From the NCBI GenBank assembly GCA_964035545.1, contig OZ037768.1, positions 24,674,319 through 24,738,318 of the forward strand: DNA of 64,000 nucleotides, written 5' to 3'. Positions 10,111-11,564 of this stretch are shown here, one piece after another (positions within the stretch are counted from its first letter, which is position 1; the number at the start of each line of letters is the position of its first letter). The stretch comes from Bugula neritina (Eukaryota; Bryozoa; Gymnolaemata; Cheilostomatida; Bugulidae). Made by a program: the position numbers and the translations under genes. The notes beneath the pieces were generated by a model. It saw nothing but the letters and a program-made list of their open reading frames with translations. It was not told the DNA's origin and searched no databases.

Positions 10111-11564
10111 ATGTCAGTCACATTGGCAAGTTTCAGAGCACTGAGAGCACCTGCTGTGGGCAGTCATCAATACTTCTATGAGCTGAGAGACCAGTTTGCC
10201 AAAGTGACTGACTACTTATACCTGTGTAGCAACTCGGCTGCGTTACAGACAGGCAGGTTGAGGAGACTGGGGGTCACGGCTGAGGTGAGACTATCTATTT
10301 GCATGCAATAGTGTTTAGGGAGAAGGAACACAGGCCGCATATAGCCTTAGTTATAGCAGACTATTAGTTAGAGTGACAGTTGCTTGTTCATGAATCAGGA
10401 TGAAACCATAGAATATGAATTAAAACTGAGGAAAGCTCCACGGCTTGGCTTGGCATTTAATAAACTCTGAGCTACTTGAATGAACTAGGGACCGAGTGTG
10501 TAATATAATGATGCTGTGGTATTCCCACCAGGTGAACGTAACTCCCCATCTTCCCTATAGTGAGTTGGAGATTCAGAAGATGAGGATAGCTGTGAGTGAC
10601 CTGCCCTCCGTGAGGATAAGCAGGTGGGTTCTATATATATATATATATATATATATATATATATATATATATATATATATATATATCTCAATCTGTGGAC
10701 AGCAGCTGTTTCGGGATTTGTCCCCTCATCAGCACAGAACAGAGTACCATGGCTCACACCTTCGCAACAGTAAAACTTATAGTTTTACTAAAGCATATTT
10801 AAAAGGTGTGTAAACTCAAGCCAGAGTGCTCAAGTGACTCTAGGGGTCACCTAGGAGTCACGAGCATTGCAGAATGCTAGCAGCTTGAGTTTGTGACCAT
10901 GGTGAGAGTGCTCAATCATTTAATGTCATTGCTGAGCATTAAATGAGAGCGTAATATCTCAATCTGTGGACAGCAGCTGTTTCGGGATTTGTCCCCTCAT
11001 CAGCACAGAACAGAGTACCATGGCCCACACCTTCGCAATAGTAAAACTTATAGTTTTACTAAAGCATATTTAAAAGGTGTGTAAACTCAAGCCAGAGTGC
11101 TCAAGTGACTCTAGGGGTCACCTAGGAGTCACGAGCATATATATATATATATATATATATATATATATATATATATATATATATATATATATATATATAT
11201 ATATATATATGTATGTATATATATATATATATATATATATATATATATATATATATATATATATATATATATATATATATATAATTGCAGATATTTCCAG
11301 GAATTCATAAACTTTGTCAACTCAGAGAGAGAGAAAGGTGGGAAGGTGATAGTATACTGTGAGTGTGGAGTGAGTAGATCAGCCACTCTCTGCATGGTGT
11401 ATCTGATAATGAAAGAGAAGATGACTCTGTACGATGCCTACAGCCACATCAAACTTCTCAGAGGCATCATCAACCCTAACAGAGGATTCTGGGAACAAAT
11501 GATGAGATTTGAAAGAGACAGAACTGGAAAATGCTCCATTAAAATTCAAGAAAAAATGACTTAA
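10111..11564 (+). CDS. Atypical dual-specificity phosphatase, DUSP14/18/21-like
   Basis: Exons 10111-10284, 10532-10623, 11291-11564 give 179 residues, the usual size for small atypical DUSPs. The fold follows DUSP14/18/21: '[13 protein letters not shown]' (first strand), '[14 protein letters not shown]' with Asp81 at the general-acid position, and the P-loop '[20 protein letters not shown]' with Cys112 and Arg118, then '[14 protein letters not shown]'. The expected activity is cysteine-dependent dephosphorylation of Ser/Thr/Tyr or related substrates in the cytosol. The His that normally precedes the catalytic Cys is Tyr111, which should alter the cysteine pKa. Intron 2 holds (AT)n and, antisense, a hammerhead retrozyme. 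Family assignment is firm; the exact orthologue is not. Confidence 0.88.
10631..10686. repeat. (AT)n microsatellite, left flank of the retrozyme
   Basis: About 28 AT units directly after the donor of phosphatase exon 2 (AGCAG|GTGGGT). Confidence 0.95.
10692..10738 (-). ncRNA. Type I hammerhead ribozyme, copy A
   Basis: Reading the minus strand: stem I 5' arm TCTGTG; core CTGATGA; stem II GGGG-ACAAA-TCCC (one G-U pair); core GAAA; short stem III ACAG-CTG-CTGT (including A15.1-U16.1); cleavage triplet GTC; stem I 3' arm CACAGA, fully complementary to TCTGTG. Every invariant core nucleotide is present. Predicted cleavage lies between 10698 and 10697. The four-base-pair stem III is typical of retrozyme hammerheads, which usually act as dimers. 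Confidence 0.88.
10963..11009 (-). ncRNA. Type I hammerhead ribozyme, copy B
   Basis: Identical over its full length to copy A, 271 bp away. Predicted cleavage lies between 10969 and 10968. Conservation of every paired and core base in both copies argues that the element was recently active. Confidence 0.88.
11138..11283. repeat. (AT)n microsatellite, right flank of the retrozyme
   Basis: About 70 AT units interrupted once by 'gtatgt' near 11210, ending 8 nt before the acceptor of phosphatase exon 3. Confidence 0.95.

Follow-up and report, generated by a model that had tools for sequence, protein, structure and literature searches.

An element in a phosphatase intron

One intron in the 64,000-nucleotide stretch of Bugula neritina DNA that we analysed (contig OZ037768.1, positions 24,674,319 to 24,738,318; hereafter the window) holds two hammerhead ribozymes in tandem. 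This raises two questions: what kind of element carries them, and how does such an element re-enter DNA? The intron (10624-11290, plus strand, GT...AG as read from the sequence) belongs to a DUSP18-like gene and consists almost entirely of (AT)n and the element. The next exon (11291-11564, plus strand) was recognised by protein match, at 64% over 86 aa to a DUSP18-like protein of Watersipora subatra. Two protein matches were obtained for the dual-specificity phosphatase gene, the better of them, with 70% identity, also from this bryozoan. The element occupies 10683-11138 on the minus strand as an array of 1.67 units, and its RNA sense is antisense relative to the phosphatase gene.

Both hammerhead cores are complete, of type I and on the minus strand, with an upstream copy at 10963-11009 and a downstream copy at 10692-10738, spaced 271 nt apart. 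Our motif descriptor (CTGANGA, a stem II of at least 4 bp and GAA, followed by a stem III of at least 4 bp starting with A-T, H17 and a stem I of at least 5 bp) matched exactly these two places in the window and none in 100 dinucleotide-shuffled windows. Stem II is GGGG/UCCC, stem III is ACAG/CUGU and stem I is UCUGUG/CACAGA. Hammerheads cleave after GUC, and on this basis cuts are predicted at 10969/10968 in the upstream copy and 10698/10697 in the downstream one; the two would release a unit of 271 nt (10698-10968, minus strand). The first-pass annotation had placed two minus-strand ribozymes here, and both sequence reading and the descriptor bear it out. The 185-bp segment that it described does recur at a spacing of 271 bp, with an identity of 99%, short of 100%.

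The annotation had also suggested a covariance-model search, and no match above threshold came of it. At gathering score Rfam had no matches in the window; at E 10 no hammerhead rose above threshold and the AT tracts gave many low-scoring matches. The top ribozyme model, RAGATH-1-hammerhead, scored 19.1 bits (E = 0.13) where its gathering score is 56.3, with no non-standard pair marked in the alignment. The core nucleotides of a type I hammerhead are all present, as judged from the motif search and this alignment, at a score below the Rfam gathering score. A genome search with RF00163 gave no matches, and its control also matched nowhere, so this null carries no weight. The circular 271-nt unit has a predicted fold of -94.7 kcal/mol (200 shuffles: mean -61.3, sd 4.7, lowest -77.0), and the linear unit has a z of -7.12. 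The predicted stability of the ribozyme stretch by itself is unremarkable (z = -1.25).

A dispersed retrozyme family

Further genomic copies, which the annotation had proposed to look for, turned out to form a large family. Across the whole genome (216 Mb) there are 172 exact copies of a ribozyme 40-mer and 503 with at most three mismatches (0 for the reversed-pattern control in both cases), at least seventy-one aligned stretches of the unit, and 353 exact copies of the 3' 25-mer. The unit is 271-272 nt long, shows no evident coding and contains an intact type I hammerhead; its tandem arrays are scattered over many sites. ORFs overlapping the window element reach at most 105 aa and extend through (AT)n; the retrozyme has no reverse transcriptase of its own, and its 271-nt unit has no long ORF.

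In the available part of PMC7229834, metazoan non-LTR retrozymes are described as type I hammerhead, non-coding tandem repeats of 150-450 bp with many dispersed copies and a stable predicted circle, and Penelope-like elements (PLEs) are named as a strong candidate helper. The bryozoan element is alike in hammerhead type, unit length, non-coding tandem structure, dispersal and stable predicted circle. By its sequence it is a metazoan retrozyme, probably of the non-LTR kind, within a phosphatase intron, and the retrozyme reading of the first pass is thereby supported. It differs from that description in its joint, whose constant position is an internal AUAU in (AT)n. Other marks of metazoan retrozymes are self-cleaving transcripts, expression as circular RNA and the absence of LTR, primer binding site and polypurine tract.

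In a second subfamily the junction reads GAGGTAT and the spacing is mostly 272 nt; at C9:3146055-3147175 five of its ribozyme ends follow one another. No excess conservation of the ribozyme was found in young copies (12/2275 versus 58/9077 sites elsewhere, P = 0.65).

A fixed 3' joint in AT-repeats

Loci were turned to RNA sense before joints were compared. Loci L001-L030 were found via the whole unit and L031-L080 via exact ribozyme matches, so arrays without a ribozyme end are under-sampled. Ten of seventy-five alignment groups were left out: four short pieces (L016 at 1314, L028 at 3078, L047 at 1798 and L056 at 17), L073 (a duplicate of L072), L005 at 1910, L019 at 1109 and L038 (GAGGTAT subfamily), L040 (old) and L058, whose 3' end differs. 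L013 and L022 are duplicates of one locus and were both counted among the remaining sixty-five arrays. The shortest of the seventy-five groups is a 31-nt remnant (L028:3078-3108), with a canonical 3' joint in (AT)n.

All sixty-five curated arrays have their 3' end at CACAGATTGA(G)/AT within AT-repeats. Before curation, 72/75 groups ended at CACAGATTGA(G), the three exceptions being L058 (end CTATA/TATA) and the inner pieces L047 and L056. The joint is 11 nt beyond the predicted ribozyme cut and is therefore not a ribozyme-made RNA end. In the window it reads GAG/ATAT and then (AT)n (10683-10687, minus strand, from the sequence and the locus alignment). The same AUAU recurs inside the array at the unit junction (10954-10957, minus strand), and the 3' ends point to it as the putative start site of reverse transcription. 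The locus alignment places (AT)n at 10632-10686 on the RNA-3' side; on the RNA-5' side it runs from 11137 to 11283, broken at 11211-11215, and the 5' joint falls at rotated unit position 91 (ATGCTCGTG).

The genome-wide 25-mers agree. Over half of them (181/353) run on as K-ATATATAT, i.e. into AT, 31 show the internal unit junction KATATTACG, 98 belong to the GAGGTAT subfamily and 43 are unclassified. A hand count of the 98 gave 66 continuing as GGTATATA (into AT), 29 as GGTATTAT (internal) and 3 others. Background (AT)10+ tracts number 16 per 131,271 flank bases. By a strict tract measure, the 3' tract is shorter than 10 nt in five of the sixty-five arrays. The median (AT)n length is 65 on the 3' side versus 19 on the 5' side, and in L019, L067, L069 and L079 a single AT tract is common to two elements. 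A target site duplication, which in metazoan retrozymes exceeds 4 bp where there is one, is unreadable inside (AT)n, and few words are in common beyond it. The insertion into an AT microsatellite that the first-pass annotation had suggested for this one locus thus holds for the family; the fixed internal position of the joint, 11 nt after the cut, was absent from that reading.

Variable 5' ends

The 5' ends of the sixty-five arrays are scattered over the whole unit. Alternating AT flanks them in fifty-one arrays and is lacking in fourteen; by the strict tract measure the 5' tract is at least 10 nt long in 38/65 and shorter in 27/65. Microhomology was measured at fifty of the fifty-one AT-flanked joints. 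It averaged 1.94 nt, compared with 0.72 for random joints, and 14/50 joints had 4 nt of it (2.8% expected). None of 20,000 resamplings equalled the observed microhomology, even with the best phase permitted. Twenty-two of the sixty-five 5' ends fall inside the 15-nt interval that separates the cut from the start site, where 3.6 were expected. It is as if the enzyme often stopped at its own start; AT in this interval could alternatively favour joints there.

The curated arrays range from 0.28 to 4.0 units in length, and arrays of 3 to 5 units exist. Of the variants seen within arrays, ten are common to all covering units, four of these being absent from every other array, and they are outnumbered by thirty-five that are not in common. 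Judged by sequence, the shared variants fit a single template molecule, and the unshared ones are consistent with copying errors or mutations that came later. In the 300-bp flanks of the sixty-five arrays, we recognised no source flank carried along by 5' transduction. Five pairs of similar flanks were considered as transductions and rejected: L013/L022 are a segmental duplicate, and the others contain a PLE, a retrozyme or another repeat.

A Penelope-like element with the same target

A genome search with PF01541 (GIY-YIG) returned one place and missed the PLEs that were found afterwards. With a PLE protein probe (an approximate query sequence), 4004 proteins were obtained at E 1e-20 and 120 of the 4004 were used onward; among these 120, many are labelled reverse transcriptase and some have GIY-YIG domains. 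Searched with the 120 listed proteins, three retrozyme loci contain PLE pieces (L028, L078 and L079). The family at L078 and L079 has a PLE-type reverse transcriptase. Against the Pfam profile for this enzyme L087 scored 35.2 bits, above the cut-off of 29.6, and L092 scored 22.3 bits, under it; against a profile of fifteen PLE proteins the family aligned through the reverse transcriptase and endonuclease region with a probability of 99.9. PF01541 did not match either PLE protein (L087, L092) at E 0.01.

The 3' UTR of this PLE is present in at least forty near-complete copies (97-100%), and its 3' 22-mer has 239 exact copies, counted with a pattern that bars G or C at the last place. Among 100 listed 3' ends, AT follows directly in 49, the start of a tail in 50 and neither in 1; in the loci examined the tail continues to AAAG/ATAT. 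Many copies lie, by their coordinates, in head-to-head pairs, so that the family combines an optional tail with head-to-head inverted copies. Read by eye, the 3' region has a hammerhead-like stretch (CTGAAGA, GGGTAC/GTACCC, GAAA), for which Rfam at E 1 gave no match.

At two loci this PLE and the retrozyme meet. In L078 an inverted PLE is fused head to head with a retrozyme, and both 3' ends are in (AT)n, the same arrangement as in the PLE pairs; it is the sole PLE/retrozyme chimera recognised among the sixty-five arrays. In L079 a PLE and a retrozyme stand tail to tail within one AT tract. Over the stretches for which both elements were listed (C1, C2 and C3 up to 9.9 Mb), 2/100 retrozyme sites have a PLE end no more than 500 bp away and 6/100 have one no more than 5 kb away, compared with 0.06 and 0.48 on average for random placement; shared target choice alone could explain this nearness. 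The first-pass annotation had no Penelope link.

The 3' region of a second PLE family, at L028:1844-3080, also contains a hammerhead-like stretch (CTGATGA ... GAAAC), and its end at this locus is beside (AT)n; in L029, L013, L022 and L002, fragments of this family are found close to retrozymes. In four LINE copies, one per type, no 3' region was seen ending in (AT)n. One LINE 3' region, at L083:1284-2480, has AAGT repeats and then a long (ACT)n tract, and this element may have a microsatellite habit of its own.

A model for re-entry into DNA

The best explanation, which is also the simplest and to which we give a probability of roughly two in three, is that (AT)n is nicked by the enzyme of a PLE, which then takes retrozyme RNA, probably in circular form, as its template and begins at the internal AUAU. 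As in known retrozymes, the type I hammerhead would divide transcripts of tandem units into 271-nt pieces, which could close into circles. The PLE enzyme would nick an (AT)n microsatellite, and the freed TATA end would pair with the internal AUAU just outside the ribozyme, where reverse transcription would begin. The enzyme would circle the template about 0.3 to 4 or 5 times and then stop, and the new cDNA end would be joined to the other (AT)n side, often via AT microhomology. The sequences themselves show the ribozyme motif and its family, the constant 3' joint in AT targets, the varying 5' ends with their microhomology, and a PLE that has the same target; that the RNA is cleaved and circularised, that this PLE supplies the enzyme, and in what order the steps follow are inferred. 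Several results weigh against the model: unshared variants within arrays outnumber shared ones, the ribozyme of young copies is no better conserved than the rest, fourteen arrays have no alternating AT at their 5' side, L092 scores below the reverse transcriptase cut-off, and neither PF01541 nor, for the hammerhead-like stretch, Rfam matches the PLE. A cut linear monomer primed in this way would yield only 11 nt of cDNA and a circle or multimer would therefore be needed; a circle is the likely template.

A close comparison is Poseidon, a PLE of the anole (Anolis). It is reported to cut both strands of AT-rich DNA, to initiate reverse transcription inside its RNA at two neighbouring sites matching the tail, and to have a hammerhead that cleaves only with the protein (PMC11167929). 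Shared with the retrozyme are the internal start, the AT-rich target and the hammerhead upstream of the start; the optional tail and the AT targets recur in the PLE described here, which has inverted pairs as well. The fixed internal start that the 3' ends indicate for the retrozyme, beside its own hammerhead, is of the same kind as that of the anole PLE. Unlike Poseidon, the retrozyme has no protein and essentially a single start site, and its start sites have AU homology to the target, whereas the anole PLE starts at a place that lacks homology to the DNA it cuts (PMC11167929).

From the sequence, CUC/GAG pairs able to extend stem I finish exactly at the joint, and the ribozyme fold may mark the start of reverse transcription. 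Going further, we would put at even odds a version in which the circular ribozyme RNA is the direct template of target-primed reverse transcription by a Penelope enzyme: AT-repeat DNA would prime at the one internal AUAU next to the hammerhead, the enzyme would roll around the circle, and the outer stem of the ribozyme would serve as a docking mark that makes the circle resemble PLE RNA. Folding does not account for the single start site, since the predicted circle leaves each of the three AU sites unpaired. L058 used a different AU site.

Multimers could also arise from uncut tandem transcripts. In the strongest alternative, which we consider unlikely, the PLE likewise initiates internally at AUAU, but its template is the long linear RNA transcribed from a tandem array and left uncut, the circle being a dead-end product. 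Tandem arrays are present in the genome, and the anole PLE used mainly unprocessed RNA and still inserted when its ribozyme was mutated (PMC11167929). Against such a template, however, stand the lack of any recognised 5' transduction among the sixty-five arrays, the existence of arrays of 3 to 5 units and the massing of 5' ends at the unit boundary, which AT microhomology could also cause.

Improbable in our view is a SINE-like repeat that generates the (AT)n itself, as a 3' tail, upon insertion and has no targeting of microsatellites. Such a tail would fit the longer (AT)n on the 3' side and the short or absent (AT)n on the 5' side of part of the arrays, but alternating AT also flanks most 5' ends and single tracts are common to two elements. 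Least probable is satellite-like DNA that recombination between microsatellites has dispersed, or a rolling-circle DNA element of the Helitron type, with an incidental hammerhead: tandem units and an AT joint would suit elements of both kinds, but the ribozyme core, with every motif part, occurs in hundreds of copies, and one constant 3' end combined with 5' ends truncated at varying points usually indicates reverse transcription.

Relation to known elements

Retrozymes, their circles and PLEs as suspected helpers were known already (available parts of PMC7229834 and PMC7761336). No motif in the animal repeats reveals the helper, according to the accessible portion of a 2020 review (PMC7761336). 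The word 'microsatellite' has 0 occurrences in the main text of PMC7229834, and the accessible part of PMC12910113 holds nothing further on the target. Our literature search, with most subscription papers outside its reach, turned up no report of retrozymes located in AT microsatellites, nor any paper combining 'hammerhead ribozyme' and 'bryozoa'. We found no description of the fixed AT-microsatellite joint or of a PLE-retrozyme chimera in the literature consulted on retrozymes and PLEs, part of which was available in excerpt. Bdelloid Penelope elements, as described in the available part of PMC3846280, have head-to-head inverted copies and an optional tail like the PLE here; unlike the retrozyme, they are protein-coding, and no retrozyme partner is described there. 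Schistosome hammerheads also occur in an animal intron and come with RNA polymerase III promoter boxes A and B (available part of PMC2576457).

For the question of how animal retrozymes re-enter DNA, the hundreds of joints described here supply, within a single genome, a start site, a target, the pattern of truncation and a candidate for the helper. The mechanism is now directly testable with purified PLE protein and the 271-nt circle, and the findings suggest what the hammerheads of PLEs may serve for.

Other repeats were seen along the way. In both L021 and L076 another repeat lies in the array's 5' flank. Its end (...CAATCAGCATACATT) adjoins (AT)n and is cut differently at each locus; by its sequence it is a further AT-targeting candidate. 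Elsewhere in the window there is a very long minisatellite at 22617-25475, open on both strands (948 and 912 aa), and further coding-length minisatellites lie at 8587-9753, 18669-19778 and 20271-22038.
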